35,648 bases of DNA from a virus: positions 1 to 35,648 of the IMG/VR virus record IMGVR_UViG_3300020472_000083; one strand, written 5' to 3'. The stretch's first letter is position 1; each line of letters opens with the position of its first letter. Of this stretch, positions 1,771-26,058 are shown one piece after another. The position numbers and the translations under genes are program-made. The notes below the pieces were generated by a model, which was not told the origin of the DNA, did no database searches, and was given only the letters and a program-made list of their open reading frames with translations.

Positions 1771-4700
1771 ATGCCTGATAAAAAAGTAAAAATCTCGAAT
1801 ATTCTTAATAGCCAGATTCCAGATTTTATTCTGGATGATGGTTCTTTATTTAAAGAATTCTTAGAACAATATTATGCATCTGAAGAACATGAATATGGTA
1901 CGACTTATCTTGCCGATAATTTAGAATCAATTAAAAAAATATCGACTTTATCTGATATTGCTACTGTTGAAGCACAAACTGTTCCTGCTCCAGGAAGTAC
2001 TGTTCCTTCTTCTCCAGTAGTTGTTGCTGCTGAAGCATACGCATATGATGATGTAATTTACGTTAATCAAACCACTGGATTTCCAGATAAATGGGGTTTA
2101 TTAAAAATTGATGATGAAATTATTACATATACTGGAAAAACTGCTACTTCTTTTACTGGATGTAAACGTGGTTTTAGTGGTATAGATGCAATAGAAACCG
2201 CAGGTAATCCAGAATTTTTAACATTTAGTGAAACTAATTCTTCTCTTCATGATGCAGGGACTCTTGTAGTTAATTTAAGTTTCTTATTTTTAGTTGAATT
2301 TTATAAGAAACATAAGTATCAATTCTTACCAGGATTGGAAGGAAGGAGTTTTAAACAAGGTATTGCGTTAGAAAATATACTCTCTAGAGCAAAAGATTTT
2401 TATAGTTCAAAAGGAACTGACACTGCATTGGAAATTCTCTTCCAGGCTCTATATGGAGAGCAAGTAGAGATAGTCAAACCTTTTAATGAGACTCTTATAC
2501 CATCTGAGGCAGAATGGAATGTTACAGAGGATATGGTGGTCGAGGCTATATCAGGTGATCCATTAAAATTGGTTGGATCAAAGATATTTCAAGATTCAAC
2601 TGCTAATCCTACTGCATCGGGGGCAGTTGCTAATGTCCAACAGGTATTTTTGAATAATAAGAAATATTATCAACTTAAATTTTCTAGAGGATCTCTTAAT
2701 AGTACATTTAAAGTAGGTGGAAAAACAAAAGTTATTGGAACTGCATCTACTACATCAGTAACAACTGTTGATTCTACAGTTGGATTCTCTACCGTAGGGA
2801 CATTTTACTATTTGAATGCTGATAATGTTTATACTTCTGCATCATATGAGTCAAAATCGAGTAATCAATTCTTTGGATGTGTTGGAATTAGTACTGTATT
2901 GAAGGAAAACGATTCAATTATTGATGAAACTTTCATTTTTGGTTATGAAGATAATGATTTGACTAAATTATGTCAAATGAGAGTCACTGGATCAATTTCT
3001 GGTGCATCTGATGCAGATACTAAGTTTTTTGCTAATGATGATGCAATTACCGTAAAGTATTTGGGGGAAAAGGTTGATCCAAATGATCCTAAATTTGAAA
3101 GTTGGTTCTATAATAACATTTCATACATTGATGTAGAAGAAAATATATCAAACAATACCTTCAAAACAAATGAAAAGCATTTTCTTAAAAATGGAGATAT
3201 AGTTGATGTTTTGTATAAGGATACATTGGGAACTGTAGTATCAGAAGATATTGTTAGTGATGTTGTAGGTGATTATCAACTTAAAATTAGTAATAATACT
3301 GTTAATGTTAATGGAAGATATGTTATTAGAAAAAAAATAAATTATGTTAATTCCAAATATGGAATACCTTCTCTACTTTCAAATATCCAGAATACATTTG
3401 TAGATGATGATAAGAATACGTATGTAGCATTTTCTGGTTATCCTTCATTTGATGCTGAAACAACAAATGGATCACAAACTTTCACTTCGAGTGGAGTATC
3501 AACGAATACATCTACTATAAGTTTCGTAAATGATCATAATTTTTATAACGGTGAAAAAATTTATATTGGTATTGGTACAGAAGGAGTTGTTGATGATACA
3601 AACACTATATTTTCTAGTGGATATTACTATGTTAAGTTAGTTGATGTTAAAAATATTCAATTATGTGTGAATCTTTCTACTTTATATGCAGGAATTACTG
3701 AACCTATTAAATTTAATGGAGAATCAGCAAGTGGAATTCATACTGTTACACCAGCAAACTTATATAAAACTGGTAATTTAAAAAATCAAGATAATTTTAA
3801 GAGAATATTAAAATCACCAAAATTAGTAGATAATAATTCAGATATTACTGGACCAATTGGAGTATCTTTGAATGGAGTAGAACTACATTCTCCAATATCT
3901 AATGATTCTGTGTATTATGGTCCTGTTACTGATGTTGATATTTTAAATGAAGGTCAAGATTATGACATAATAAATCCACCAAATGTGTCAATTGCTGATA
4001 CTTATGGTACTGGAGCATCAATTAATGTAAATTTCTCAGGAAGTATTTCTGATATTGTGTTAACTTCAAAGGGATTTGACTATGTTGAAACTCCAGTAGT
4101 TTCCATAACTGGGGGAAATGGATCTGGTGCAATATGTGAAGCCAAGATGAAGGGATATACCCATTCTGAAACATTTACTGATTTTGATGTACAATTAACT
4201 GATCCTGGTAGGATTGATACATCACATAAGTTCTTAGATGGGGAGCAGGTAACCTATACTGCCTATGGAACACCAATTGGTATAGGAAGCACCCAAGTTG
4301 GTTTTGCGACTGATAGATTGGCATCTGGGACAACTTATTATATTGCTAAACATTCAACAAATTCCTTTGGATTAGCAATATCTAGAGCAGATGCTCTTAA
4401 TAAGATAAATTTAATACATTTTAATCAGTATGGAAATACAACGCATGAGTTTAAATCTACAAAAATTAGGAATATAGTTGATAGAATTATTATTAATGAT
4501 CCTGGTTCATCTTATTCTAATAGAAAAGTTACCGTTCAATCTCAAGTATATCCATCAGTAGATGTAATAGATTTATTTAAAACATATGTCGGAATTAATA
4601 CTTTTGATAATTATGTTTATGCAAAGAATCATAATTTCCAAAATAAAGATATTGTAAGTTATTCTAGTTCTAACACAGTAATTAGTGGATTGACTGCAGG

Positions 4701-7700
4701 AGATTATTATGTAACTCTTATTGATGAAAATAGATTTAAATTGAGTAGTAATGAAACAAATTATGATAGAAATATTTTTATTGATTTGAATAGTGTTGGA
4801 GTTGGTACTCATACATTCAAATATCCAGATATTGCAGTTAATATTGATGGTGGAGTTGGTATTGGAACAACTACAACAATAGAATCATATTATAATGCTA
4901 TTGCATATGCTGAAGTAAAAGGTAGTGTTTCAAATGTATTTGTTGAATCTGGAGGATCATCTTATGGTGTAGATGATATCATTAATTATGCTCGTGGACC
5001 AAAAATTAAATTATTGACAGGAAAGAATGCAAATTTACAACCATTTGTTGATAGTACTGGTAAGATTACTAATGTTTTGATATTGAATAAGGGTAGTGAA
5101 TATTCTACTCCACCTGAACTTAGAGTTAGTGAAACAGGTAAAACTTCTGGTCAGTTTGCTAAATTGAGAGCAATTGTTGCCAATGGTGAGATAACTGGTG
5201 TTGATATTATAAATGCAGGTGTAAATTATGATGTTAATAATACAATTATTACCGTTGTTCCAGCTGGAAAAGATGCTAAATTTGGTGCAAATGTATATGG
5301 ATGGAAATTGAATAATGTTTCACAATACTCATATCTTTTAAGTAATCCAGATTATAAGGATATTATACAAATTGGAACTCAAAATGTATTTAAAGAGAAT
5401 AAAATTTGTTCTTTCTATGCAGGAAATTATTATAGACAACTTCTAGGTGATGATATTGAAGATATTTCTGGTGTTTTAAAGGAAAAAACACCAACTTCAC
5501 ATTCCAAAATTATTGGTTGGGCATATGATGGAAATCCAATTTATGGACCAGTTGGAGAAGTTGGTATTGGACTTACTTATATGCAATCCAGTTATGTTAA
5601 AGATCCTGTTAGTGATAGTGGATTAAGACCATCAACTTCCAATTATTCACCTGGATCTTTTATTCAGGATTATGTTTATGATGCTAGTGGAGATTTAGAT
5701 GAATATAATGGTAAATTTGTAAAAACTCCAGAATATCCAAATGGAACATATGCTTATTTTAGTACTATTGATAAAACTTTAACACCAAATAGTGTCCCAA
5801 CATTTCCTTATATAACTAAAAAACATCGTAATAAAACAGATTTATTTAATTATGATGTTTTAATGGATCAATCTGATGAGTTTTTGAATAGTGGAAAGTA
5901 TAAGAGAAATATAACACATTTTGGATTAAATGATAAATTTAAAACATATCCATTATTAAGTGATTCTTTGGATTCAGATGCAGAAATTAGAGTAGATTCT
6001 CTAAATTCTGGAAAAATTTCAAAAATTATTGTAAATGATGGTGGAGAATCTTATAAATCTGGAGAATTAATAGAATTTAATAATAAGAGTATTTCTGCAA
6101 GTATTGATGAAGTTTATGGTAAAAATATCGTATCTGTAGAGACATCCGATACCATTAATGATGATTTAAAATTCTCTATAGTTGATGGTAAAGTTACAGG
6201 ACTCTCTACTCTTCCACATGGCCTTACTAATAGAGATATTATCGAAATTTCGGGTATAACATCTTCTCTTTATACAAATGTAGAGGGATTTAGAGAAATT
6301 GGTGTTTCTTCAGTAACTTCTGGATTGTCTTCTTCTATGGTCAATTCTGGAGTAACTACTTTTATTTCATTACATGATTCAACACTCAGTAATAAATTTA
6401 ATATTAACGATGTAGTTCAAGTAGAATCTGAACAATTACAAGTTATTGCACATGATGATTATAATAACAGATATAGAGTTACTAGGGGATATAATGGAAC
6501 TACTGCATCTGGACATGGTTCTGGAGCAATTGTTTATAGACTTGAAAAGGAATTTACGTATGATATTCCAGAAAAATTAGAGAATAAAAACATAGAATTC
6601 CCCAAAATTCAATATTTTGAAGGAGCAAAATCTGTAGGACTTGGTAGTGTTTATACAGATGTTGTAGTTGGATATGCTGGTAGTGTTGCTATTAAGAAAT
6701 CTATACCACCAAGATCAATATATCTACCAAATCATAAGTTCAAAACTGGTGATCTTTTATCATTTGTTTCGGTTGGATCTACTATATTTGTTTCAGGGAC
6801 AGATGCATTAACACCTGCTGTCGATTTATCTACTTATGGAAATTTATATTGTGTAAAACTTAGTGATGAATTTATTGGTCTATCTACACAAAAAGCAAAT
6901 TATACCACAACACATAGTTGGTTTACTGTAGTTCAAAATACTGGTGGAGATAATAATAGTTTAGAACTTGTTACTAACAACGTTAATGGTCGTTTCAAGA
7001 AAGTAAGTGCAACAGTAACTACTGATTCTAATCATTCATTGGTAGTTAATGATAATGTGAGATTAGATATTTCACCAAATAAAGCACAAATTATTGATCT
7101 TAGATTCAATAGTGATATTAGAAAATTAGTCGTAAATCCAGTTACTATTGCATCTACAGGAATTGGAACAATTACAGATGAAATTACAATTACAGACCAT
7201 AATTTCAATACAGGAGATATGGTTGTTTATAATTCATCAACTCCTGCTACACCATTAGTTGATGATGGAATTTATCATGTTATAGATGAATCAGATAACA
7301 CTATACGTCTTGCGGAAACAAAGTATGATGTTAACTTATTCCCATACAATTATATTGGAATAGGAATTACTGGTGGAGATCCTCATACATTTACTAAAAT
7401 AAATCCAAGAATAGAATTATATGAAGGAAATACAGCTGAATTTTTAGTATCAGATACTAGTTTAGATGGATACGATATTGCTTTTTATAGTGATGAAAAC
7501 TTTAAAACTAGATATGATTCTGGTTTAATTACTAGAACAGGAACAATTGGTGATGGATTAACTGCCAAGATTAATGTTTCTCTTGGGAGTTCTATTTCAA
7601 ATAAGTTATATTATAGAATTGAGGGAAAAGATTTAAATTATACTAAAACTTATCCATCTGCTGTCGAAAGCGATGTTGTAAGATCCTCAGAAATTGAAGT

Positions 7701-10700
7701 AGTAGAATCCAAATTTAATAAAATTCATAGAATTACTGGAGTAGCAAATACTACTTTCACATTTAATATGGTTGGTAGTGGAGAAACTACATTATACAAT
7801 AATCTTGGAATTACAAGTGCATTCTATGCAACAGATTCTAGTTCTGTAATGGGTGGAATCTATTCAATTAAGATTGTTAGTAATGGTGAAAAAGTAAATA
7901 AATTACCAATTATAACTTCTATAGGAACAACTACTGGTAAAAATGCATTATTTACAGTTGAATCCCTTGATATAGGAAAGGTAAACGATACTACGGTTTA
8001 TAATCAAGGATTAGAATTTTCTAGAGATAAGACAATTCCACCAAAGGCTGATAGTAACATAATATTGGAATTGAAGGATGTATTTACATTAAAATCAATT
8101 GGTGTGACAACTGGAGGAACAAATTATACTTCAGCTCCAGTAACTATTGCTATTGATAAACCTTCTATTGTAACAAGAACCAATTTAGTTGGAAATTCAG
8201 TTGATAGTGTTGATATACTTTCAAATGATAGTGGTTTGTCTGATTCATTGAGAATTGTTCCTACTGTTAATTCCAATGGTGTTCAGGTTATAGGTGCTAT
8301 AACCAATTCAACTCAAATAGTTACTTTGGAAATAAGAGGACCAGTTGATGGATTTGATTCAGATAATCCATTCCCATTTGCTGTTGGTGATAGAGTTTTT
8401 GTTGAGAATATAAAAGTAACAGAGGCTGATGCTGATGGATATAATTCTAGTGATTATGAATATAAGTATTTCACTCTTACTGCAATTAATACTACTGGTG
8501 GAACGGAAAGTATAGCATATTCTATTGCTGGTATTGGAAGTACTGGAGGAACTTATGATAGGAGTGTAAGTAATTTTGGTAGAGTTGTAAACGTAAACGA
8601 TTTAGCATCTTATTCTCCAACTTTTGAAAAAACTTCATTCTATGAAAATGAAATTGTTAGAGTTCCAAATAAAAATATATTTGGTTATGTTGCTAAAAAT
8701 GGTTGGGATCCTGAAGCTCAAACTTTAAAATTATACAGTGTAACTGGAGAATTTAATAAAAATGATAGAATAGTTGGTGATGTAAGTAATAATAAAGCAG
8801 GTATTGGTGCAGTTTTCTCATTTGATTTTAATTTAGATGTTAGTAGTACAGTTGAAAATATCAATAAATGGAAAGATGATATTGGGAAATTAAATTTAGA
8901 TAGACAAAGACTTCATGATAATGATTATTATCAAAGATTCTCTTATGCAATTAAAGGTGAGAATATCCCATATCTAACATGGAAAGATCCAGTTAGTAGT
9001 TTAAGTCATACTGCTGGATTTAAAGGATTCTCTAATTTAGGAATTACTTCAGTTAGTCAATTAAGCACAAAGGTTGATTCAGATTTATTTTTAAATGTAA
9101 CACTTGATGCTGAAGCATCAGTATGGGAAAGATGGTATTATGATGATGTTACAGAAGAAACGAATGATTCAAGTTTATCAAAAATTGTTAAATTTGAAAA
9201 TAGAATAATTACAAAGTATAATGAGTCAAGAACTAATAAAGTTTTATTAATAGATGATATTAGTTCACAATTTAATGGTATTACAACTTCTGTTGGTGGT
9301 GGAATTATTGGATTAAGCACCTTTGCTGTATATACTGGTGGTGATAGATTATTCTATAAAAATTTCAATCCTGTAACTGGTATTGATACCACTACACATG
9401 AAGTTACTATTCCTAGACATGAGTTTAATACTGGAGAACGTTTGCGTTATACCCAACATACTGGACCAATTGGTATTGATACAACAACTGTTCCAGGAGT
9501 TGGATCAACAAATATATTACCCACAGATGTTTATGCAATTAAGATAACAGATGATAAGTTTCAGGTAGCGGTTGCTCGTACATTTGCCACTGCTGGTACT
9601 GCTGTTACATTCACTACAGTTAGTGGTATTGGAACTATACACAATTTGCAAGTTCCTACTGAAAATGCTTCAATTAGAAGTGTAATAACTGTTGATAATA
9701 TTATTCAAAGTCCAATTGCAATAACTACTGCAATTAATGTTAATTTAACTGGACCAGTTGGTATTAATACTAATTTTGTTTATTTGAATAGTGCTGCCGA
9801 TATTTCTGGTAAATCTTTAATCAATATTGATCAGGAGATATTTAAAGTTAGTTTAGTGGGTGTTGGATCTGCAAGGGAATTGGATGTTCTTCGAGGACAG
9901 ATGGGAACCGTTGCTGCAGCACATACTGTCGGTGCAGCAGTAACTGTCATTAAAGGTGATTATAAGATAGAAAATGGTAATATCTATTTTTCTGATGCTC
10001 CTTATGGCCCTGCTGGTATTGGATCATTAACGAGTCAATCCACGTTTGCTGGAAGATCATACTATAGATTAGATTATACTTCTAATAAGATAATGGATGA
10101 TATATCTGATCGTTTTGATGGTGCAACTGATAAGTTTGATTTAACTACTAACGGTGCAGAAATGTCTGGAATAACTAGTAGTTTTGGTATGGTATTGGTT
10201 AACAATATCTTCCAAAGACCAGATGTGGATGAACTTAGTGGAGAATCGAGTTCAGATTATTCATTAGTTGGTACTGGTAAGACAATTGATTTCACTGGAA
10301 CATCTGCAAATAAGGATCTTCCTAAAGGTGGTATAATTAATGAATTTGATGTTGGAATAGGTAGTGGATATCAATTACCAAGGCAAGCACTTTTGGATGT
10401 TGTTATTAACAGTAATACAGGAACAATTTCTACAGTAGGAATATTGACTGGTGGTTCTGGTTATCTTAGTGCTCCAATGGTTTCCATTGCTTCTACTGAT
10501 AGACATTTCTCTCATAGTTTCGTATCTGCATCAAATAATGCAGTAAATGGATCATTAACACCAACAAATGCGGAATATACATCGACAACTGGTATGATGG
10601 TATTAACTATACCAGGTCATACTCTTACTACTTCAAATACTGTTCAGTTTGCTAATAACTCTATAACAATGAGTTGTTCTAGAGATAACTATACCACAAA

Positions 10701-12426
10701 TCATACTTATCCAAGAACAACTGACCCTGTTGCTGGTGTTGCAACTGCTATTTTGGCAACTACTACAGATACAGTTACAGTTTTTGTTGGAGTTGGTTCT
10801 GGTGATGATGCAGTTCTTACTACCCACATAACAGATGGATCAGTTTCTTGGGTTAATATAACAAATGCAGGTACTGGATACACATCAACTGGTATAGGTG
10901 GTTCTACTGGTTTTGCTGTGGTTGATACACCAAAACCATATAAAAATATTTCATTATCTGGTGGAACTGGATCAGGTGCTGCTGTTGATGTTGTTGTTGG
11001 AACTGGTGGTAGTATAGTTGATTTTAAACTTTCTAATCGTGGTATGGGCTATGAAATTGGTGAACAATTAGAAATCATTAATCTTCCATTCCAAGCAGGT
11101 ATTGCTACAAGTAGATTCAACATAACAATCAGGAACAAATATCAAGATAAATTTGCTGGTTGGTGCTTTGGTGAATTAATTGAATTGGATGATTTTAGTA
11201 ATTTGTTTAATGGATATAGAAAAGCATTCTTAATTACTCGCACAGGTGCTGCTGGTAAGGAGTATTATAGTGTTGTTGCGAAAGAGGGTTCTGGAATTAT
11301 TCTTGCAAATAATTTGTTCTTATTCTTGAATGATATTTTACAAATACCTGACAAGGATTATGAATTTAATGGTGGAACAAGAATAACGTTCAAAGAAGCA
11401 CCAAAACGTGGAAGTAAGTTCAAATTCTATCTATATGCTGGTTCGGATTTGGATTATGCCGAAGTAGATGTTGATGAGACTGTTAAACCAGGTGATGAAT
11501 TGAAACTTCAAGCTGGTATTAATACCATAACTAATGGAAGAATTCCTGAACAGGATAATAGAATAATTTATGAGTTAATTGCTGCTGATACTGTAGAAAC
11601 ACAAACATACTCTGGTATTGGTATTGTCACTGATCCTGCTGCAAGAAGACCAACAATGTGGAGGAAGCAGACAAAGGATATGCTTATTGATGGTGTAAGA
11701 ATATCTAAAGAAAGAAATTACTTAGAACCACAAATATATCCAACTTCTGGAATTATTAAATCAGTTTCCAATAGTGATAATATAATATGGATTGAAGATT
11801 CTTGGTTATATGATCATGTAGATGAATTAGATCAAGATGTTAATAATGTTCGGATAGTTGGATTAGGAACAATTGCAAAATCCGAAGTAATTGAAAAGGT
11901 TGAATATAAAGGTGACTATGGAACAGTTGTTGGTATTGGAACAAGCGCAGTAGGAATAGGTACTACTACTTCACCTGCACTTTATTTTGATCTTAAAGTT
12001 GCTTCTGAAATATTTGCGGATTCTCCTAATGCTAATCAACTTAAAATACCAGGAATTGGTACTGGTGGATATTTCACAATAAGAGATACCCATATTGGAC
12101 CTGGAGTAACTGGTATTGTGACACATACAAGTGAAGTAGTTTCAGTTGGAAATACTTTCTTAGATAATGTATATTATGCAGCTGATGTAGTTGGTATGGG
12201 AGCAACAACTCTAAGAGTTTTTGCTAATATTACTTCTTTATCTGGTATAGATACATCTATAATATCAGATATTGTAAGGTGTGGATCCTATAGTTGGGGT
12301 TCTTTGACTGGTAGTAGAGGATCTGGTGCAAAATCATATACATTCCATAATCAGAATGGTTTAATTGGAATCCAAACTTCTGCTCAAGTTATACGAGATG
12401 TTCAATTAAAAGTTAAGTATACTTAA
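1771..12426 (+). CDS. 7: Giant baseplate wedge protein gp7 (3551 aa), multi-module
   Basis: Placed between gp6 and gp8, where T4 encodes gp7, the long wedge-initiating protein that links the baseplate hub region to the periphery. T4 gp7 has 1032 residues; this one has 3551. The N-terminal ~270 residues look like the core (FKEFLEQYYASEEHEYGTTY; SSKGTDTALEILFQALYG at ~residues 212-229). The rest is a mosaic: EII-Y/RG-GT modules (~91-138, 1534-1592, 2677-2731), repeated H-F--GD modules resembling FCCH domains, many G-GY--P repeats, a YHYH-like domain (~1240-1350), a YPR-DP module (~2935-3030) and DDIS--FDG modules (~2494, 2775, 3138). No transmembrane segment or signal peptide is evident. The frame is unbroken. 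The gp7 call depends mainly on position; the module descriptions come from the sequence. It starts 3 bases after gp6 without a clear Shine-Dalgarno sequence, suggesting coupled translation. Confidence 0.82.
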   Translation: MPDKKVKISNILNSQIPDFILDDGSLFKEFLEQYYASEEHEYGTTYLADNLESIKKISTLSDIATVEAQTVPAPGSTVPSSPVVVAAEAYAYDDVIYVNQTTGFPDKWGLLKIDDEIITYTGKTATSFTGCKRGFSGIDAIETAGNPEFLTFSETNSSLHDAGTLVVNLSFLFLVEFYKKHKYQFLPGLEGRSFKQGIALENILSRAKDFYSSKGTDTALEILFQALYGEQVEIVKPFNETLIPSEAEWNVTEDMVVEAISGDPLKLVGSKIFQDSTANPTASGAVANVQQVFLNNKKYYQLKFSRGSLNSTFKVGGKTKVIGTASTTSVTTVDSTVGFSTVGTFYYLNADNVYTSASYESKSSNQFFGCVGISTVLKENDSIIDETFIFGYEDNDLTKLCQMRVTGSISGASDADTKFFANDDAITVKYLGEKVDPNDPKFESWFYNNISYIDVEENISNNTFKTNEKHFLKNGDIVDVLYKDTLGTVVSEDIVSDVVGDYQLKISNNTVNVNGRYVIRKKINYVNSKYGIPSLLSNIQNTFVDDDKNTYVAFSGYPSFDAETTNGSQTFTSSGVSTNTSTISFVNDHNFYNGEKIYIGIGTEGVVDDTNTIFSSGYYYVKLVDVKNIQLCVNLSTLYAGITEPIKFNGESASGIHTVTPANLYKTGNLKNQDNFKRILKSPKLVDNNSDITGPIGVSLNGVELHSPISNDSVYYGPVTDVDILNEGQDYDIINPPNVSIADTYGTGASINVNFSGSISDIVLTSKGFDYVETPVVSITGGNGSGAICEAKMKGYTHSETFTDFDVQLTDPGRIDTSHKFLDGEQVTYTAYGTPIGIGSTQVGFATDRLASGTTYYIAKHSTNSFGLAISRADALNKINLIHFNQYGNTTHEFKSTKIRNIVDRIIINDPGSSYSNRKVTVQSQVYPSVDVIDLFKTYVGINTFDNYVYAKNHNFQNKDIVSYSSSNTVISGLTAGDYYVTLIDENRFKLSSNETNYDRNIFIDLNSVGVGTHTFKYPDIAVNIDGGVGIGTTTTIESYYNAIAYAEVKGSVSNVFVESGGSSYGVDDIINYARGPKIKLLTGKNANLQPFVDSTGKITNVLILNKGSEYSTPPELRVSETGKTSGQFAKLRAIVANGEITGVDIINAGVNYDVNNTIITVVPAGKDAKFGANVYGWKLNNVSQYSYLLSNPDYKDIIQIGTQNVFKENKICSFYAGNYYRQLLGDDIEDISGVLKEKTPTSHSKIIGWAYDGNPIYGPVGEVGIGLTYMQSSYVKDPVSDSGLRPSTSNYSPGSFIQDYVYDASGDLDEYNGKFVKTPEYPNGTYAYFSTIDKTLTPNSVPTFPYITKKHRNKTDLFNYDVLMDQSDEFLNSGKYKRNITHFGLNDKFKTYPLLSDSLDSDAEIRVDSLNSGKISKIIVNDGGESYKSGELIEFNNKSISASIDEVYGKNIVSVETSDTINDDLKFSIVDGKVTGLSTLPHGLTNRDIIEISGITSSLYTNVEGFREIGVSSVTSGLSSSMVNSGVTTFISLHDSTLSNKFNINDVVQVESEQLQVIAHDDYNNRYRVTRGYNGTTASGHGSGAIVYRLEKEFTYDIPEKLENKNIEFPKIQYFEGAKSVGLGSVYTDVVVGYAGSVAIKKSIPPRSIYLPNHKFKTGDLLSFVSVGSTIFVSGTDALTPAVDLSTYGNLYCVKLSDEFIGLSTQKANYTTTHSWFTVVQNTGGDNNSLELVTNNVNGRFKKVSATVTTDSNHSLVVNDNVRLDISPNKAQIIDLRFNSDIRKLVVNPVTIASTGIGTITDEITITDHNFNTGDMVVYNSSTPATPLVDDGIYHVIDESDNTIRLAETKYDVNLFPYNYIGIGITGGDPHTFTKINPRIELYEGNTAEFLVSDTSLDGYDIAFYSDENFKTRYDSGLITRTGTIGDGLTAKINVSLGSSISNKLYYRIEGKDLNYTKTYPSAVESDVVRSSEIEVVESKFNKIHRITGVANTTFTFNMVGSGETTLYNNLGITSAFYATDSSSVMGGIYSIKIVSNGEKVNKLPIITSIGTTTGKNALFTVESLDIGKVNDTTVYNQGLEFSRDKTIPPKADSNIILELKDVFTLKSIGVTTGGTNYTSAPVTIAIDKPSIVTRTNLVGNSVDSVDILSNDSGLSDSLRIVPTVNSNGVQVIGAITNSTQIVTLEIRGPVDGFDSDNPFPFAVGDRVFVENIKVTEADADGYNSSDYEYKYFTLTAINTTGGTESIAYSIAGIGSTGGTYDRSVSNFGRVVNVNDLASYSPTFEKTSFYENEIVRVPNKNIFGYVAKNGWDPEAQTLKLYSVTGEFNKNDRIVGDVSNNKAGIGAVFSFDFNLDVSSTVENINKWKDDIGKLNLDRQRLHDNDYYQRFSYAIKGENIPYLTWKDPVSSLSHTAGFKGFSNLGITSVSQLSTKVDSDLFLNVTLDAEASVWERWYYDDVTEETNDSSLSKIVKFENRIITKYNESRTNKVLLIDDISSQFNGITTSVGGGIIGLSTFAVYTGGDRLFYKNFNPVTGIDTTTHEVTIPRHEFNTGERLRYTQHTGPIGIDTTTVPGVGSTNILPTDVYAIKITDDKFQVAVARTFATAGTAVTFTTVSGIGTIHNLQVPTENASIRSVITVDNIIQSPIAITTAINVNLTGPVGINTNFVYLNSAADISGKSLINIDQEIFKVSLVGVGSARELDVLRGQMGTVAAAHTVGAAVTVIKGDYKIENGNIYFSDAPYGPAGIGSLTSQSTFAGRSYYRLDYTSNKIMDDISDRFDGATDKFDLTTNGAEMSGITSSFGMVLVNNIFQRPDVDELSGESSSDYSLVGTGKTIDFTGTSANKDLPKGGIINEFDVGIGSGYQLPRQALLDVVINSNTGTISTVGILTGGSGYLSAPMVSIASTDRHFSHSFVSASNNAVNGSLTPTNAEYTSTTGMMVLTIPGHTLTTSNTVQFANNSITMSCSRDNYTTNHTYPRTTDPVAGVATAILATTTDTVTVFVGVGSGDDAVLTTHITDGSVSWVNITNAGTGYTSTGIGGSTGFAVVDTPKPYKNISLSGGTGSGAAVDVVVGTGGSIVDFKLSNRGMGYEIGEQLEIINLPFQAGIATSRFNITIRNKYQDKFAGWCFGELIELDDFSNLFNGYRKAFLITRTGAAGKEYYSVVAKEGSGIILANNLFLFLNDILQIPDKDYEFNGGTRITFKEAPKRGSKFKFYLYAGSDLDYAEVDVDETVKPGDELKLQAGINTITNGRIPEQDNRIIYELIAADTVETQTYSGIGIVTDPAARRPTMWRKQTKDMLIDGVRISKERNYLEPQIYPTSGIIKSVSNSDNIIWIEDSWLYDHVDELDQDVNNVRIVGLGTIAKSEVIEKVEYKGDYGTVVGIGTSAVGIGTTTSPALYFDLKVASEIFADSPNANQLKIPGIGTGGYFTIRDTHIGPGVTGIVTHTSEVVSVGNTFLDNVYYAADVVGMGATTLRVFANITSLSGIDTSIISDIVRCGSYSWGSLTGSRGSGAKSYTFHNQNGLIGIQTSAQVIRDVQLKVKYT
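2041..2184 (+). repeat. EII-Y / RG-xx-G module, gp7 copy 1
   Basis: Residues ~91-138 of gp7 read as VNQTTGFP, then LLKIDDEIITYTG, then FTGCKRGFSG. This matches a module common in phage structural proteins: a turn, a short strand containing an E-I-I-x-Y core, and a closing R-G-x-x-G. Related copies lie in gp7 (~6370-6543 and ~9799-9963), in the DUF4815-type protein (~20209-20415) and in gp15 (~26840-27014). Confidence 0.7.
3534..4824 (+). repeat. H-F--GD (FCCH-like) modules, first cluster in gp7
   Basis: Three modules of 65-80 residues start with HNFYNGEKIYI (~3534), HKFLDGEQVTY (~4225) and HNFQNKDIVSY (~4629). Each continues with a G-x-YYV/YYI strand and an N-x-F/I-x-L pattern, and two close with a THEF/THTF-like sequence. 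Further copies begin near 6218, 6732, 7198 and 9418. The pattern resembles the FCCH-type beta modules that databases report in phage proteins. Copies are diverged at the DNA level, so these are old protein repeats and not recent tandem duplications. G-GY--P repeats lie between the copies, for example at ~3934 and ~4060. Confidence 0.65.
5488..5820 (+). other. YHYH-like domain embedded in gp7
   Basis: Residues ~1240-1350 contain SHSKIIGWAYDGNPIYGP, followed by DLDEYNGKFVKTPEYPNGTY and FPYI. This closely follows the signature of the YHYH family (I-I-G-W-A-x-D-G-x-P-I-Y-G-P, then D-L-D-E-x-N-G, T-P-E-Y-P-x-G-T-Y and Y-P-Y). The family is usually found in secreted proteins of bacteria and marine organisms and has no firmly established function. 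Here it lies inside a baseplate protein, flanked by G-GY repeats. Confidence 0.75.
10573..10860 (+). other. GH-LT / YPR-DP module in gp7
   Basis: Residues ~2935-3030 contain TGMMVLTIPGHTLTTSN, SITMSCSRD and HTYPRTTDP. This matches a module I recognise from other phage structural proteins (G-H-x-L-T-t, S-x-T-x-x-C-x-x-D, then Y-P-R-x-x-D-P). It is followed directly by a G-GY repeat (NAGTGY). Only one copy is visible in the window. Confidence 0.6.
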
Positions 12427-12457: not shown

Positions 12458-14050
12458 ATGCCAGCAATAATAACTGACCAATACAGAATACTGAATGCTG
12501 AAACGTTCGTTGACAGTTTTGTAGGTATTGGTACCACAGGTAATAACAACTATTACACATTTTTAGGTCATCCAAATCCTAAGAACGTTAATGTTCCAAA
12601 ATATGGAGATGCTGATTGGGATACTAAGATTCCTGACCCTAAAGATAACTTCGATCAAGAAAATCTATACTATGATAGTATGCTCTTTTTGAAGAAGGTA
12701 ACTGAGAATGATGTAAGAAGGGTAGTTAAGAGAGTTGATTGGCAATCTGGTACAACTTATGACATGTATCGGAATAATTATGAGATTAATAATAAAACAC
12801 CACAAACAAAAACATCAACGTTATATGAATCTAATTATTATGTTGTTAATTCGGAGTATAAGGTTTACCTTTGTCTAGACAATGGATCTAATGTAGATTT
12901 CCCACTCGGACAAAAATCACAATATGAACCAAATTTTGTAGATACCGCAAGGCAACAAGCAGGAAATGGATCTGATGGATATTGGTGGAAATATCTTTTT
13001 ACTATTGCTCCTTCAGACATAGTTAAATTTGCTACCAATAAGTATATTCCTCTTCCTAAACAATGGGGTGATACAACAACGGCAACAATTAAGAATGCTG
13101 CAATAGATGGAAAGGTCGAATCAGTTGTACTTAAAAAAATTGGTAGTGGATATGCTGTCAAAGAATCTGGTACAAATGATTCAAGTGGAACTATTTCAAA
13201 TATACCTATTGTTGGTGATGGATCTGGTGGCCAAGTTCAAGTAAAACTTAATAGTGGTTCTATTGAGAGTGTTGAAATGGTAGCAGGTGGAAGTGGTTAT
13301 ACTTATGGAGTAGTTAGATTTGAAGATAAAGTAGCAGGTGGTGACAATAAACAAGTGTCAGGTGGTTCAGGTGGAGAATTTGAAATTATAATTCCACCAA
13401 AGGGTGGACATGGTTCAGACATATATCGTGAACTTGGTGGTTATAAGGTTATGATATATTCTAAGTATGATAATAATGTTGCAGATGCTCCAGATTATGT
13501 TGTTGGTAATGATTTTTCTCGTGTTGGATTAGTTAAAAATCCTCTTGTATACGGTGGAACACAGCTACTAAATAGTACGACTGCCACTAATCTTGGCGCA
13601 TTGAAACTTGCACCTTCTCCTGGTACAGCGAGAACTGATGATGTTACATTTGTCAAGAATGCTCAAATTACTCAGACAGTCGGAGTTGGTTCTACAGCAG
13701 TTGGTTATGTTGCATCTTGGAATCCAGATACTGGAATTTTAAGATACTATCAACCAGTTGGTTTTTCAACTTTATCTCAATATTCTTATAAGAAATTGGA
13801 TTTTGTTGGAGTAGCAGCAACAGTTAATGGTGGTACTGGTGGAAATCTTTGGCCTGATATTACTTTTGATAATGTAAGTTCTATCAAAGTTGGTGGAAAA
13901 GATGTTGATTTAGGACAAACATTTGTTGATGGTAAAGCACCCCCAGACGTTAAAAAATATTCTGGAGATATAATCTATATTGATAATAGGTCGTCAGTCA
14001 CCAGGTCTTCCTCACAAAAAGAAGAAGTAAAAATCGTAGTAGAGTTCTAA
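12458..14050 (+). CDS. 8: Baseplate wedge protein gp8
   Basis: Homologue of T4 gp8, a dimeric wedge subunit that binds gp7 and gp10. The N-terminal part reads AIITDQYRILNAETFVDSF and contains FLKKVTENDVRRVVKRVDW; YWWKYLFTIAPSDIVKF corresponds to the conserved YVWEYLFEIPPD region of T4 gp8. The C-terminus SGDIIYIDNRSSVTRS...EEVKIVVEF aligns well with the end of T4 gp8 (GEMIYMENRPPI...EEINILF). The protein has 530 residues against 334 in T4. The extra length includes two G-GY repeats at residues ~226 and ~277-288, of the type seen in gp7 and gp14. It has its own late promoter and ends 3 bases before the next gene. Confidence 0.93.
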   Translation: MPAIITDQYRILNAETFVDSFVGIGTTGNNNYYTFLGHPNPKNVNVPKYGDADWDTKIPDPKDNFDQENLYYDSMLFLKKVTENDVRRVVKRVDWQSGTTYDMYRNNYEINNKTPQTKTSTLYESNYYVVNSEYKVYLCLDNGSNVDFPLGQKSQYEPNFVDTARQQAGNGSDGYWWKYLFTIAPSDIVKFATNKYIPLPKQWGDTTTATIKNAAIDGKVESVVLKKIGSGYAVKESGTNDSSGTISNIPIVGDGSGGQVQVKLNSGSIESVEMVAGGSGYTYGVVRFEDKVAGGDNKQVSGGSGGEFEIIIPPKGGHGSDIYRELGGYKVMIYSKYDNNVADAPDYVVGNDFSRVGLVKNPLVYGGTQLLNSTTATNLGALKLAPSPGTARTDDVTFVKNAQITQTVGVGSTAVGYVASWNPDTGILRYYQPVGFSTLSQYSYKKLDFVGVAATVNGGTGGNLWPDITFDNVSSIKVGGKDVDLGQTFVDGKAPPDVKKYSGDIIYIDNRSSVTRSSSQKEEVKIVVEF

Positions 14051-14053
14051 AAA

Positions 14054-17000
14054 ATGACACAGAATACTAATTTAAATGTCTCTCCATATTTTGATGATTT
14101 TAATGAAGACAAGAACTATAATAAAGTTCTATTCAAACCTGGATTTCCACTTCAAGCGAGAGAATTAACAACTCTACAATCAATTCTTCAGAATCAGATA
14201 GAAAGATTTGGTCAACATTTCTTTAAAGAAGGTTCGATAGTAATTCCTGGTGGGACATTTTATGATGACAATTATTTTGCGGTAAAGATAGATCCAAATT
14301 TTCTTAATATACCAGTCTTTAATTATACAAAATTCCTTGTAGATAATAATATAGAAATAGAAGGAGAAACTTCTGGAGTAAGAGCGACTGTAGTTAATAG
14401 ATTAACTGCACCTGAATCTACTGATGGTTATGATACATTATATGTAAAATATTCAAAATCTGGACGTGATGGAGTTACTAAGACATTCCAAGATGGAGAA
14501 AATTTAGTTACTTTGTCAGATATTTCATTTTTAAATACAAGTATTGGTGCTAATAGTCAATTTGCTAGATGTATTATATCTGAAGCTTCTAAAACTGGGT
14601 GCTCTTTCTCGGTTAGTGAGGGTATATTCTTTATTAGAGGATATTTCGTTAAAGTTCCAAATTCTACTGTAATTTTGGATCAATATACTAATTTGCCTAG
14701 TTATAGGGTTGGTTTACTTATCAATGAAGAAATAGTACGTGCATCATCTGTAAATTCAGATCTTTATGATAATGCTAAAGGATTTTCTAATGAGGCTGCT
14801 CCTGGTGCTGATAGATTTAAAATCTCTGCTACTTTACACAAAAAAGCACTCACAGATAAAAATGATTTAGACTTTATTGAATTATTACGTGTCGAAAATG
14901 GAATTGTAAGGAATATTGTAACTAGAACACAGTATAATATTATTGCAGATGAACTTGCGAGAAGGACATATGATGAGTCAGGAGATTATTATGTTAAACC
15001 TTTTTCTATTGATGTAAGAGAATCGTTAAACGATAGAGTTGGAAATAGAGGAATATATTTCTCCAATCAACAGACTCAGAATGGAAATACACCATCGGAT
15101 GATATACTATCGCTTCAAGTATCACCAGGAAAGGCGTATGTAAGGGGTTATGAGGTCGATAAAATATCTACTTCGTCTATTGATGTCGTTAAGCCAAGAA
15201 CGACCAAGTTAAAGGAGAATGCAAGTACTCCTATAAGAATTGGAAATTATGTTGATCTTGAGAATGTTTGGGGATCACCTACTATTGGATTCTCTACAAG
15301 TGTAAAATTACTTGATAGAAGATGTAAGGATAATGGAGAAGCACATAGAGATTCTATTGTTGTTGGACATGCAAGGATATTTGATTTTAATCAGAAGAGT
15401 ATATCTGGAGTTTCTACAACCACTCATGAGGCACGTCTATATGACATTCAGACCCACACAAAGGTATCATTGGGTGCAACCATAGCATCTGTGCCAAATA
15501 GCGCACAGATTAAAGGAAAATACAGTGGATCTGTTGGATTTGCAACAGCTGCAAGTACGGATACTCAATTACTCGTTATGAGTGATGTTACTGGACAATT
15601 CCAGTTAAATGAACCGATTTTAATTAATGGAAATGATACTGGTAATAATATTACTGAAGTTACTGATTGGTCATTTGATAATATAAAGGCACTTAATAGT
15701 GAGGCTGGTATTGGTGCTGGAACTTCTACTTTTGCTGCTAATTTATTATTAGATCGTAAAAAAGGTACATTTAACGAAGGAATTGAATTTAGTTTTTCAG
15801 GAAGTGCTGTCCAAAGTGGTGGTGTATCAGACTTTAGAGGACTTGTTAAAGTTGGTGATATAATATCTTATAATCTTAGCACTGGACTTCCTGTATACAA
15901 TAGAGTAACAACTGTCAATCAAACTGCTCTTGTTATCGAAGCAGTATCCAATGTTGATGGAGTATGTAGTGGAGTCTTGGCAGGTGGTACAACCCCAACT
16001 GGTGTAGATGTTCTTATCCCTTCCATTAAGCAAGGAGATGATCCTGGATTTAGAATGAAATTGCCACATAATTATGTGTCATCTATTAATATTCTTGATA
16101 GTTCTTATATTGTAAGAAAGCAATTTACTAATGTTACTATTAGTTCAGTTGCTTCTCACACTTTTCAGATAAGTGCTCTTTCTGATAATTCCGATCTATA
16201 CTTTGAACCATTTACAGAACAAAACTATACTTTAACTTGGAGTACTGGAGAAAAGGAAATAGTTAGGGAGTCTCAAGTTACAATTAGTGCAAATTCTAAA
16301 GAACTTGAAATAAAAACTCTTTCAAAAACAGGAACAGCAACTCTTACTGCTTCAGTAAGAAGAAGTAAACTTTCATCTAAGGATAAAGATTTAGTAAGAT
16401 GTGCTAATCTTATTATTACAAGATCAAATGATACTTCATCTGGTATTACAACCTTTACTAAAAATGATGGATTAACTGTGAATGCTGTTTACGGAACGAG
16501 AGTACAAGATGAAGAGATTTCATTGAATGTTCCAGATGTGAGTAGAATATTAGGAATATTTGAATCTACCGATGGAACTGATCCTGATCTACCATCTGTA
16601 TCAGTATCAACACAATCTGATACATTTACTAATAACGTACTTGTTGGTGAAGAGTTTATAGGTGCTACTTCTGGTGCCGTTGGTCGTGTAGTGTCCATTG
16701 TCAGTGGTACACAGTTGCAATTTGTTTATGAAAACGAAAATACGTTTGAAGTTGGTGAATCATTTACATTAAAAACTGCTGGTATTTTAGCAACAATTTC
16801 TGCTTTAGTTAAAGGTGATACAAATATAGTTAACAACTATAAGTTGGATGATGGGCATAGAGAAGAATTTGCTGATTATTCAAGAATAGTAAGAAAGAAA
16901 GGCATTGCAGCACCTTCAAGAAGATTGAGAATAATTTATGATCATTATACAAATAATGAAGGTACTGGAACTCTAGAAACAGTTAATAGTTATACTGGAT

Positions 17001-20000
17001 TAGATTATTCAACAGAATTGCCATTTGTTATTGATAGTTGGGCATCAGATTTTCTTGATTTAAGACCAAGGGTTACAGCATACAACACAAGTAGTGGAGA
17101 TTCACCATTCTCATTTGCGAGTAGAAACTTTTCCACTTCTACTTCAGAAACAGTAGTTTCTAATAAAAGTGTTGTTGTTGACTATAGTTACTATCAAGGA
17201 AGAATTGATAGATTATACTTAACAAAAGATGGATTATTTGAAGTTAAGAAAGGGAGTCCAGCTGATAGACCAAAAACACCATTACCAAATGATGAAGCAA
17301 TGGAAATTGCTGTCATTTCATTGGAACCATATATTCGCAATGCTACTGCTGAAAGTGCAGTAAAAACAATTCCACATAAGAGATACACCATGAAAGATAT
17401 TGGTGGTCTTGAAAGTAGAATTAAGAATCTCGAAACATATACTACGCTTTCTCTTCTTGAGACTGATACTAAGAATTTGTCAATCAAAGATCCTAATACT
17501 GGATTAGATAAATTTAAGTCTGGTTTCTTTGTAGATAACTTTAGAAATCATGCATCTCATAATTTAACTGGTGAGTCTAAGTTTGATATTGATATGGCAA
17601 CTGGTGAAATGAGACCGAGATCAGCTGAAAGAAATGTTAAGTTGATGTTTGAGACTGTTAGTACTTTAGCAAGTCCATCTACTGCAGATTATCGTTGGGT
17701 AGAAGATTTTGCGGATGCTAATGTTACAAGAAATGGTCCTGCGGTTAGTCTTAAGTTTGATGAAGTTGAATTCCTCGATCAACCACTAGCAACAAGAACG
17801 GAGAACTTAAATCCATTCCATATTGCACTATTTGCAGGAACAATCGCACTTAATCCTGAATCTGATTTCTGGATTGAAGAAGTTCCATTGGGATCCCCTG
17901 AAGTATTCAGAATTGATTCACCATTCAATGCAATTGCAGATCTTCTTGGTGTTGAGGATCGTGAAAATGGTGGAATGGGGGCATCTTATTGGAATTCTCA
18001 TGAGCAAACTTGGACTGGAAGTGAAGTAATTGATGAAGAAGTTATAAACAGCGAAGTAGTTTCCAGTGAAGTGGAGAGTATGCGTGGAAGAGGAAGAAGA
18101 GAGATTACTACAACTGTTATTAATGAAGATATTTTACAAACTGTTAAAGAAACAGGAATTGAGAAGACATTTAATTTTGATTTAACTGTTGGACAAGAAA
18201 CCATAGACCTTGGTAAGAAAGTTATCGGAGTCGATGTTCTCTATAATGTTAGATCAAGGAATGTTGAGGTTATTGGTAAACGATTAAAACCAAATACAAG
18301 ATATTATGTCTTCATGGAAAATGTTGACATGACTAAGTATGCTATTCCCAAATTGTTACCTATAACAATGGTGAGGGGATCATTTGCACCAGCTGATATT
18401 GTAGACAGTACTACTCCTGCAGGTTCTGGAGTTGCAGGTATTAGGTTTAGAGCAGCAACATCTAATCATAAAGAAGGTAAGTTTAACGAACCAGACGATA
18501 TAGTAACTATATTACCATATCCTTTACCTGGAACTACACTTCCTGGAAGTTATTCAAGTACAAGTTCAGTATTGAATGTTGATACTGCTGGTCTTGCAAT
18601 GCATACTGCACCTGATCATCTTGGTTGGGTTAAGCAGGGTATGACTTTGGTTAATATGCAAGGAAGTGCAGAATGTACTATTGATGAACTCAAGTTAGTA
18701 AGTGATGAAAAGGGAGATTTGATTTTCTCTTTACATATTCCTGATCCTACTATTGCAAGTAATCCTAAGTTCCTTACAGGTACTAGTACAATTAGATTAA
18801 CATCTAGTGCAACAAATGCAGCAGTTCTAGATCCAGGTGAAAGTTCTGCAGAAGCAAATTATCTTGCTAGTGGACATGCTCAAAATACAACTGAGCAAAC
18901 TTTAGCCATTAAATCTGCTCATATTGAACGGAAACAAGTAGGTTCTGATCAACCTGTAACTAGAATTACTGATAATCTTCTTGAGGATCAAGTTAGAACA
19001 GATGTTCATGATACTGGATGGTATGATCCACTTGCACAATCATTCCTAGTAGAAAGAGATAGATTCCAAGATGGAATATTCATAACTGGTGGAGATTTAT
19101 TCTTTAAGAAGAAAGATAATACTGCTCCAGTAACAGTTCAGCTAAGAACTATGAGAAATGGAACTCCAACTACAACTATTGTTCCATTTGGCCAAACTCA
19201 AATAGATTCAGCTGATGTTAATCTATCAGATGATGGTAGTGCTGTTACTAATTTTAAATTTGAGACACCAGTGTATTTGCAATCTGGATATGAGTATGCA
19301 ATAGTATTAATTGCTCCTACAGAAAAGTATCTAACATTTATTACTAGGATGGGAGAAGAGGATTTAATTCTTCAGTCTGTAAGTAATAGACAACCATACT
19401 TAGGATCACTATTCAAATCACAGAATAGTTCAACATGGACTCCAAGTCAGTATGAAGATCTTAAGTTTAAACTCAATAAAGCAAAGTTTGTAACTAATAC
19501 TCCTTCTAGTGTTATTTTCTATAATACGGAGTTACCTTTAGGTAAAATTAGAAAAAGAAATCCAGTTGTTGGATATTCAAATAGAGCAGCAGTATCGATA
19601 GCAACAACTACTAAAACTTACACTGAAGGACATGAGTTCTTCCAAGGAACTGATACTGGAAGACTTCTTAAAGCAGGTGGACCAGTAAGTCTTGGTACGA
19701 CTACTATGACATTAGTACCAAATACTGGTATTGGTTTGACTGATTTTGCTTATACTGGAATTGGATTTAGTTCTCTTACTGGAGATGGAACAGGAGCACA
19801 AGCAACAGTAACTGTTGCTTCTAATGCAATCACATCTATTGATATAACGGCTGGTGGTAGTGGATATGTTGCTGGTGATTCTCTTCTTATGAACAATCTA
19901 GGTGCCGAAGGTTCTGGTGTAAGAACAGTTGTTGCTATCTCCACTTTAACAAATTATCTTCTTATGGATGAAGTTAATAATAAATTTGTAGATAATGTAG

Positions 20001-24627: not shown

Positions 24628-26058
24628 ATGCCACTTTCTCCGTATTTCCTTCAAGGATCATCCAATGAACAAAGATTAGTTCAGGATCTAATTAATGAAC
24701 AATTAAAAATTTATGGACAGGACGTAGTATATCTTCCAAGAAATGTCATAAACAAAAATACTATTATGAAAGAGGTTACTGCCTCTGTATTTGATGATGC
24801 TTATCGGATGGAAGCATATTTGTTAAATTATGAAGGATTTGAAGGTAATGGAGATATTTTATCTAAATTTGGAGTTCAAACAACTGATCAAGTTACTTTT
24901 GTAGTATCTAAAGAAAGGTATGAGGATTTTATTAGTCCATTTATGGCAGCAGATAGTCAAATTGAATTAGCAACAAGGCCAGAAGAAGGTGATTTAATAT
25001 ACTTACCTTTAGATAATACTATGTTTGAGATTAAGTATGTTGAAGGTAAGAAACCATTTTATCAGTTGAATAATCTCTATGTTTACACATTAAGTTGTGA
25101 AGTAATGGATTATGCTGCTGATGAACTAATTGATACAAGTATTGCCGAAGTTGATGAGGCTGCAGTTGAGTTTGGATTTACACAAAGACTTACTATGGTT
25201 GGTCTTGGTGCATCAACAGCAACTGCTACTGTTGTTGTAGCAGAAAATACTGGATCACTTGGAACTGGACGTTATTCAGTATCTCAAGTTGATTTAATTA
25301 ATGATGGAACAGGATATACAATTGCACCATTAGTTGGAATTGCTACTGCTCCAAGTGGTGGAATAAATGCAACTGCTGTTGCAATCATGACAAGTAGAAC
25401 TGGACAGACTGGTCAATCGATTGATAATATTCAACTTACTAATCCAGGTTATGGTTACACTGTACCACCTGTTATTACTATTAGAAGTCAGAATGCATTT
25501 GGAACTGGTGGTATTGCAACTGCTATAATTTCACAAGGATCTCTAACTATACCAACTATAAACGATTCTGGTGCAGAATATGGATCAACACCAACTGTTC
25601 TTATTGGAGTTGCCCCATCTGGAGGAACTAATGCAGCATCTGTTGCTATAGTTAATACTGCTGGTGGTTTGAATGCTATTAGATACACTAATGCTGGTGC
25701 TGGATATACAGTAGCACCAAATGTTATTATAGATGCTCCTGCCTCTGGTATTAACACTGGAAATTATCTCTTTAGAGAGATGGTTAGAGGTGTTTCTACT
25801 GGAAGTACTGCATATGTTGAATCTTGGGATAGTGATGATAGGATTCTTAAGATTAACAATATTTCTGGAAGTGGTTTTGCAATTGGAGAAGCAGTTGTTG
25901 GTATAGGAACTTCTAATAATGGATCTGATGCTAAGTATATTGTCCAGAGTACATCTGACCAAGATGAGTATGATCTTTACAATGAAAATATTCTTGTAGA
26001 ATCAGAAGCAGATGCACTTTTGGACTTTACTGAAGATAATCCATTTGGAGACTTCTAA
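24628..26058 (+). CDS. 14: Neck protein gp14 with a G-GY repeat insertion
   Basis: Homologue of T4 gp14 (256 residues), partner of gp13 in the neck. The N-terminal half matches T4: LVQDLINEQLKIYGQDVVYL then PRN, YLLNYEGFEGNGDILSKFG, and EGDLIYLPLDNTMFEI followed by PFYQLNN. The C-terminal ~30 residues (DEYDLYNENILVESEADALL then ending NPFGDF) correspond to the T4 end (SPFDNDFMD). Between them, residues ~195-435 are an insertion with four G-x-G-Y/G-x-E-Y repeats at ~222-370 (GTGYTIAP, GYGYTVPP, GAEYGSTP, GAGYTVAP), like those in gp7. The protein is therefore almost twice the T4 length. The split core around a repeat block is unusual in shape but the frame is unbroken. Confidence 0.93.
   Translation: MPLSPYFLQGSSNEQRLVQDLINEQLKIYGQDVVYLPRNVINKNTIMKEVTASVFDDAYRMEAYLLNYEGFEGNGDILSKFGVQTTDQVTFVVSKERYEDFISPFMAADSQIELATRPEEGDLIYLPLDNTMFEIKYVEGKKPFYQLNNLYVYTLSCEVMDYAADELIDTSIAEVDEAAVEFGFTQRLTMVGLGASTATATVVVAENTGSLGTGRYSVSQVDLINDGTGYTIAPLVGIATAPSGGINATAVAIMTSRTGQTGQSIDNIQLTNPGYGYTVPPVITIRSQNAFGTGGIATAIISQGSLTIPTINDSGAEYGSTPTVLIGVAPSGGTNAASVAIVNTAGGLNAIRYTNAGAGYTVAPNVIIDAPASGINTGNYLFREMVRGVSTGSTAYVESWDSDDRILKINNISGSGFAIGEAVVGIGTSNNGSDAKYIVQSTSDQDEYDLYNENILVESEADALLDFTEDNPFGDF
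25291..25733 (+). repeat. Four G-GY--P protein repeats inserted in gp14
   Basis: Four copies at ~37-50-residue spacing (DGTGYTIAP, PGYGYTVPP, SGAEYGSTP, AGAGYTVAP), each followed by a V-x-I strand, and by A-P-S-G-G in copies 1 and 3. Copies 1 and 4 are also similar in DNA. The same unit recurs in gp7 (for example ~3934, 4060, 5077, 8100, 10438, 11029), gp8 (~13132, 13287) and the DUF4815-type protein (~19834). Confidence 0.8.

Follow-up and report, generated by a model that had tools for sequence, protein, structure and literature searches.

T4-like cyanophages are among the commonest viruses of the ocean, and their host recognition is poorly known. The viral contig analyzed here (35,648 bases, referred to below as the window) carries at 1771–12426 an open reading frame that runs from ATG to stop with no internal stops and encodes a protein of 3,551 residues. 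The frame lies between gp6 and gp8, and T4 gp7 has 1,032 residues. This locus raises the question of whether the protein is a gp7 and, if it is, where the conserved wedge protein ends and the rest begins. The frame, all features within it, and the genes for gp6, gp8, and the VrlC-type protein are on the plus strand.

Results

Genomic Context and Family of the Enlarged gp7

The gene order of the window is gp6, gp7, gp8, VrlC-type protein, fiber-like genes, neck proteins, sheath stabilizer, terminase, sheath, tube, and portal. The sheath was assigned by Pfam and the terminase by homology; the tube, portal, and fiber-like genes are named by sequence and order only. The terminase is 81–85% identical to the terminases of Synechococcus and Prochlorococcus T4-like phages, and so the window phage is of the cyanophage type. 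The gp6 gene (1–1767), the expected partner for the gp7 core, has its 5′ end cut by the window and matches phrog_219 (E = 8e-170), with Gp6 Pfam domains just under the cut-off. On the other side, gp8 (12458–14050) matches phrog_438 (E = 2e-148) and PF09215 (E = 6e-13) and is followed by the VrlC-type protein (14054–21328; 2,424 residues), which contains DUF4815 (PF16075, E = 8e-51) and belongs with phrog_358. The first-pass annotation had named gp7 from its position and had put it at more than three times the length of T4 gp7. Both flanking genes bear the position out, as does homology to the T4 gp7 core (below), and the measured ratio is 3.4-fold. Elsewhere in the window, the sheath protein (30230–32707; 825 residues) has a Pfam sheath match limited to its C-terminal part (31913–32350), and its middle looks like added β-rich sequence.

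The window gp7 matches phrog_2885 ("baseplate wedge subunit") with 2318 bits in four stretches, the best of which covers residues 1–2502. An enlarged gp7 is not new: phrog_2885 is an annotated cyanophage "baseplate wedge initiator" family, consistent with the earlier remark that enlarged gp7 proteins are known in marine T4-like phages. Relatives were found in 470 phage records, all of them cyanophage or marine and none above 60% identity. The full-length frames (n = 53) encode 2,669 to 5,195 residues with a median of 3,562, showing that large size is the norm for gp7 in these phages and that the window copy is of average length. The longest is that of P-SSM2 (AAX44489; 5,195 residues), and its C-terminal part has matches to tail fiber families (phrog_5342). 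The shortest full frame (L029) has little of the C-terminal part and is possibly a truncated copy. In phage S-CREM2, ORF122 (77594–83407, ~1,937 residues), which lies between gp6- and gp8-like genes, was detected with 91 unique peptides (PMC10665884). Gp7 is thus likely to be in the virion, if ORF122 is the orthologue that its gene order and size, the only bases of the comparison, suggest.

The Conserved gp7 Unit Is Split

The core of the window protein aligns to residues 646–808 of T4 gp7 (hhalign P 96.7, E = 3.5e-10). An HMM built from cyanophage sequences only found T4 gp7 with E = 1.6e-9, compared with 0.016 for the best of 280 shuffles, and a tblastn search with the first 275 residues, from which the stretch holding EII module 1 had been removed, retrieved T4-like gp7s (best, Acinetobacter phage Acj61, E = 4e-5). 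Of the HMM E-values, those from the cyanophage-only models are independent; those from an iterated search had the targets included. The helical core consists of a first part at residues 8–66 (1792–1968), which hhalign places on T4 gp7 from 645/646 onward and which has HMM matches in all compact relatives, and a second part at residues 166–330 (2266–2760), which contains an FYSSKGT motif and matches phrog_26741 and, by HMM (E = 1.6e-9), T4 gp7 728–759. Nested between them is EII module 1 (residues 92–150; 2044–2220), identified by profile self-comparison and HMM; the whole inserted stretch covers approximately residues 67–165.

A further part of the unit lies some 2,000 residues downstream. The PHROG family of unknown function phrog_26741 (497 positions) matches the window protein twice, residues 203–354 corresponding to positions 84–237 and residues 2360–2442 to positions 371–448. 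This two-part match is repeated in P-SSM2, DSL-LC03, S-CAM9, and viral contigs, and in Desulfovibrio phage 7757 both parts fall inside one 587-codon frame. That frame, which begins at ~5968 and is unannotated, encodes a compact gp7 that has both the core and the closing segment. These matches show that phrog_26741 is a gp7. We call the second region the closing segment (residues 2318–2445; 8722–9105; HMM E = 5e-16 to Desulfovibrio phage 7757).

A reduced window profile (residues 8–66, 166–330, and 2290–2445) aligns to residues 8–304 of the Desulfovibrio phage 7757 protein (P 98.8, E = 7e-17). A gp7 profile built from seven T4-like phages aligns, at T4 645–896, to residues 8–287 of the same protein (P 94.4, E = 9e-8). 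With cyanophage-only HMMs, the closing segment was detected at E = 2e-18 to 2e-15 in Desulfovibrio phage 7757, Cr30, Melnitz, phiM12, and HTVC008M and, weakly though in the same position, in all seven T4-like phages (E = 0.0034 to 0.2). Compared directly with T4 gp7, the closing segment is colinear with 810–889, again weakly (P 35, E = 4e-4), and a control profile with the closing segment placed before the core left the best T4 score unchanged, so that the two arrangements are not separated in T4 itself. The link to T4 810–896 is therefore transitive, strong through the Desulfovibrio intermediate and weak directly.

Judged from these alignments, the conserved gp7 unit of ~300 residues is split into a core at residues 8–330, with EII module 1 nested in it, and a closing segment at residues 2318–2445. 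Between the two lie ~2,000 residues of modules, and ~1,100 residues follow. The module array is thus largely inserted within the unit, rather than extending its N-terminal part. The first-pass annotation was right to place conserved sequence at the N terminus but confined it to the first ~270 residues, whereas it reaches approximately residue 330 and returns at 2318–2445. It missed the split unit, the EII module inside the helical core, and the turnover of inserts at fixed sites (below).

The gap from core to closing segment varies widely, being 76 residues in Desulfovibrio phage 7757, 350 in Melnitz, 488 in HTVC008M, 518 in Cr30, 775 in phiM12, 1,546 in S-PM2, 2,084 in the window, and 2,065–2,354 in the remaining full-length proteins of the cyanophage type. 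The residues after the closing segment range from 14 (phiM12) to 2,666 (P-SSM2). The nested stretch from the first helix to the core measures ~110–155 residues in cyanophages, HTVC008M, and Melnitz, ~200–230 in four contigs, and only ~20–30 in Cr30, phiM12, and Desulfovibrio phage 7757; in HTVC008M and Melnitz the EII HMM was below threshold. Profile comparison gave no alignment of T4 gp7 residues 1–640 to the window protein. Because the compact relatives also start at the core, the N-terminal domains of T4 gp7 look specific to the T4 branch and, in our view, are not a defining feature of gp7.

Repeated Modules of the Array

BLAST of the window gp7 against itself found no repeats, because the repeats are too diverged. 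Profile self-comparison, in which windows of an alignment of 53 full-length orthologues were compared with the whole profile, gave 91 off-diagonal matches at P ≥ 50, and a reversed-profile control gave none. Module HMMs count six HFGD modules, nine GY repeats (a tenth has E = 9e-3), four EII modules, and three DDIS modules in the window protein, to which a YHYH-like domain and a YPR-DP module add one copy each. In 200 shuffled versions of the window protein, none of the four HMMs had a match at E < 1e-3. Since these copies had also served to train the HMMs, the search was repeated with one copy left out at a time. All HFGD (6/6) and DDIS (3/3) modules then gave E-values far below that of the best of 100 shuffles, as did seven of the nine GY repeats; EII modules were recovered only at shuffle level and are borderline by HMM. 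The EII family is supported by hhalign pairs (P 76–87) and by solved structures that two copies match in common (below). A mosaic with six or more kinds of module, as described from the first reading of the sequence, is thus confirmed, including its three correctly placed DDIS units and single YHYH-like and YPR-DP domains. Its other units are real but differ in number, with approximately seven HFGD, ten GY, and three EII units having been counted.

The six HFGD (FCCH-like) modules, each seen by profile self-comparison, HMM, and leave-one-out, lie at residues 565–667 (3463–3771), 797–902 (4159–4476), 934–1025 (4570–4845), 1637–1732 (6679–6966), 1788–1881 (7132–7413), and 2528–2635 (9352–9675). 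The same three methods support GY repeats 1 and 2 (residues 716–798; 3916–4164) and 6 (residues 2105–2145; 8083–8205); repeats 3–5 (residues 1051–1171; 4921–5283) were identified by profile self-comparison and HMM, repeat 7 (residues 2883–2907; 10417–10491) by hhalign, and repeats 8 and 9 (residues 3022–3106; 10834–11088) by HMM. EII module 2 (residues 327–384; 2749–2922) was found by profile self-comparison and HMM, and modules 3 (residues 1529–1598; 6355–6564) and 4 (residues 2654–2734; 9730–9972) by HMM and structural matches. DDIS modules 1–3 occupy residues 2484–2541 (9220–9393), 2761–2844 (10051–10302), and 3126–3210 (11146–11400), as judged by HMM and leave-one-out. The YPR-DP module (residues 2911–3010; 10501–10800) directly follows GY repeat 7 and is nested in a GY repeat, with hhalign aligning residues 1085–1157 to 2871–3041 across the insert.

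Modules of the same kinds occur elsewhere in the window. The Hc2-type neck protein (24628–26058) has, toward its C terminus (residues 216–368, in the C-terminal half), four GY repeats like those of gp7, the VrlC-type protein has one (residues 1926–1944), and the module HMM finds GY repeats in gp8 too. The tail sheath stabilizer (26082–27134) has an EII module at residues 263–310 (E = 2e-7).

The YHYH-like domain (residues 1234–1340; 5470–5790) matches PF14240 with E = 4e-19 and 69.8 bits against a cut-off of 25, and the match is limited to positions 82–189 of the 193 in the profile. Alignment with cellular YHYH proteins, made to examine the YHYH motif and the histidine set, showed that the motif stretch AHVQPDGTYHYHG is absent from gp7. 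The cellular set was collected by a DGTYHYH search and so contains the motif by design. The second YHY of the cellular relatives reads YAYF in the window and in P-SSM2 and also in the family consensus. We therefore describe the domain as YHYH-like and degenerate.

Insert Turnover and Selection

The gp7 of one relative (L004) is 94.8% identical to that of the window and has 242 extra residues at residues 992–996 (4744–4758), inside HFGD module 3. This insert matches phrog_5939, a tail protein (E = 4e-26), and a tail protein of Synechococcus phage ACG-2014j (49%), and it has no match in Pfam. Its C-terminal pattern, FYLWGAQIEKGQVTSPYIPTT, is one known from phage jelly-roll domains. Five other relatives carry inserts at the same site, which makes an assembly error in L004 unlikely. 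The six inserts form three groups (L004 with L057 and L058; L039 with L061; and L064 alone), and comparison between the groups found no convincing similarity. Other shared insert sites are at residue 2507 and at residues 3363–3369. The insert at the latter site, ~300 residues with RSTDNGxTW motifs in eleven relatives including S-CAM9 and DSL-LC03, looks by eye like a BNR or Ycf48-type propeller. Of the relatives, 27 have no YPR-DP module and another 10 are without most of it. Modules are gained and lost at fixed positions.

Comparison of the window gp7 with those of two contigs that are 94–95% identical gave dN/dS values of 0.05–0.46 in every 200-codon block, with generally higher values across residues 600–1600. 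The protein is under purifying selection throughout.

Predicted Structures

The predicted model of residues 560–1720 (mean pLDDT 79) shows separate β-rich domains and not one continuous fold, in keeping with the repeated domains proposed earlier, and contains a poorly predicted stretch at approximately residues 1367–1460. Among predicted viral structures, a search with this model retrieved the counterpart of gp7 from Synechococcus phage Bellamy. The top PDB matches returned by Foldseek (hepatitis E capsid, rmsd 29–37) were dismissed as β-rich chance matches. The model of residues 2310–3509 is weak (mean pLDDT 62.8), and the DDIS modules and closing segment could not be placed in it. The closing segment is unfolded in this model (pLDDT ~30), which may be due to the core being missing from the modeled segment.

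HFGD module 2, modeled as residues 796–898, resembles the FCCH region of ubiquitin E1 enzymes (UBA6, Z 8.3, rmsd 2.1 over 75 residues), a borderline similarity since a Z of ~8 can reflect a common arrangement. The FCCH profile (PF16190) had no match in the window protein at E ≤ 1 and reached E = 0.21 in L004. The FCCH likeness suggested earlier from sequence thus finds borderline agreement in the predicted fold. EII modules 3 and 4 were taken from two separately predicted models. Module 3 (model residues 954–1034) matches chain b of the JBD30 baseplate (8rk3_b) with Z 11.7 and Vibrio phage VP1 9in6_M with Z 10.8; module 4 (model residues 344–436) matches 9in6_M with Z 11.5 and 8rk3_b with Z 10.1. 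The EII unit is therefore predicted to be a known kind of phage β-barrel and to share its fold with a domain of solved phage tail or capsid proteins. Sequence-only PDB searches gave chance-level matches for EII copy 3 and no match for the whole protein.

Discussion

We propose that the 3,551-residue protein of this T4-like, cyanophage-type phage is a true gp7 orthologue in which a fixed wedge core serves as a chassis for exposed domains, and we put the probability of this reading at roughly 0.62. The conserved unit of ~300 residues most likely packs with two copies of gp6 to form the wedge, in the manner of (gp6)2-gp7 in T4 and (gp16)2-gp17 in XM1. The unit would have been opened at an internal position from which ~2,000 residues of β-modules leave and to which they return, the cyanophages having filled gp7 loops such as those in XM1 and Alg12 with large module arrays. 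With one copy per wedge, the modules would form a peripheral framework on each wedge, the exposed loops of which accept extra domains (by motif, jelly-roll-like, BNR/Ycf48-like, and YPR-DP) that may contact the host or fibers. The host-facing surface could then be varied without touching the assembly core. Insert turnover, together with the solved gp7-like proteins (PMC10457771, PMC8894135), suggests that the array may extend far from the wedge and contact a receptor, and domains exchangeable at fixed sites probably help the virus to meet its host. More tentative is an evolvable chassis in which interchangeable carbohydrate-binding domains sit at fixed loops and one wedge protein is at once assembly core, platform, and variable receptor-binding surface, an idea that we regard as possible but doubtful.

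The identification as gp7 conflicts with a report that cyano- and pelagimyophages lack gp7 and have VrlC in its place (PMC7029224); on that reading the protein would be an unrelated cyanophage structural protein. The probability of this is close to negligible given the profile matches to the T4 gp7 core, the gp6-gp7-gp8 order, and the presence of a VrlC-type gene in addition, after gp8. The pelagiphage HTVC008M likewise has a 1,016-residue gp7 relative (33435–36485; 15436–18486 in L115), annotated "putative structural protein", between its gp6- and gp8-like genes, and its VrlC follows gp8 in the same order as in the window; the gene after gp8 in P-HM2 is also annotated VrlC. Replacement of gp7 by VrlC is not supported, since both are present. 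The counting of gp7 among the non-cyanophage core genes (PMC3037559) is explained by the divergence of cyanophage gp7.

What the modules do is a separate matter. Those of the neck and sheath-stabilizer proteins are of the same kinds, and so the modules need not be receptor-related. They might be mainly structural, acting as spacer, scaffold, and docking site for VrlC and fibers in place of the T4 periphery (gp9–gp12), with no host contact. The GY repeats in the neck protein, gp8, and VrlC, the EII module in the sheath stabilizer, the nearly constant internal gap in most cyanophage-type proteins, and the main role of T4 gp7 in holding gp9 and gp10 (PMC3004832) all favor this view. The differing inserts at one site in near relatives count against it, suggesting selection for variety on an exposed loop and not a fixed docking surface, and we consider a mainly structural role unlikely, though worth serious attention. 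Much less probable is a role for gp7, through its YHYH-like domain, as a metal-dependent hydrolase that is associated with the tail and attacks the host envelope. YHYH domains are predicted to be zinc-binding hydrolases with a zinc site formed by conserved histidines (PMC7824862), and the Pfam match is significant, but it is partial, and with AHVQPDGTYHYHG absent and YAYF in place of YHY those histidines are missing.

The reading of gp7 as a split core carrying exposed domains marks the boundary between the wedge and the variable part in the largest baseplate protein and names the sites at which domains are gained and lost. The work also corrects the published statement of a missing gp7 and identifies phrog_26741 as gp7. 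No description of the module architecture or the split core was found in the papers searched, mostly those available without subscription and in their main texts, and the library search turned up no baseplate structure of a T4-like cyanophage.

The phrog_2885 proteins of P-SSM2 (AAX44489), P-HM2, S-CAM9, and DSL-LC03 share the gene place of the window gp7, and in the cyanophage gp7s of this family core, modules, and closing segment follow one another as in the window; that of DSL-LC03 is 34% identical to the window protein over 96% of the first 3,000 residues. They differ in length, from 3,048 residues in S-PM2 to 5,195 in P-SSM2, and in C-terminal content: P-SSM2 has several YPR-DP modules where the window has one, and S-CAM9 and DSL-LC03 have a 300-residue insert at residue 3369 that the window gp7 is without. 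The compact relatives (Desulfovibrio phage 7757, 587 codons; Cr30, 767 residues; Melnitz, 896; phiM12, 1,007; HTVC008M, 1,016) have the core and closing segment in common with the window protein, but they contain no HFGD, EII, or DDIS module at E < 1e-3 and only 0–4 GY repeats, and both their gap and their tail are far shorter.

T4 gp7 is a monomer, present six times in each tail, and is in contact with gp6, gp8, gp9, and gp10 (PMC3004832). It has a helical core and closing segment (645–896) colinear with those of the window. Its unit is unsplit, however, and it has none of the four module types modeled by HMM. Two further proteins, compared here by their published descriptions, are XM1 gp17 and the gp7-like part of AlgoCIS Alg12, which form a wedge core bundle with gp6 partners. 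XM1 gp17 (242 residues) joins two copies of gp16 in the core bundle by way of a helix-turn-helix and binds the tail spike through residues 80–106 and 201–242 (PMC10457771). In its general inter-helix location, the EII stretch nested in the window core may correspond to XM1 residues 80–106. The gp7-like part of Alg12 is lateral and fiber-binding and has been named a hotspot of evolutionary re-engineering (PMC8894135).
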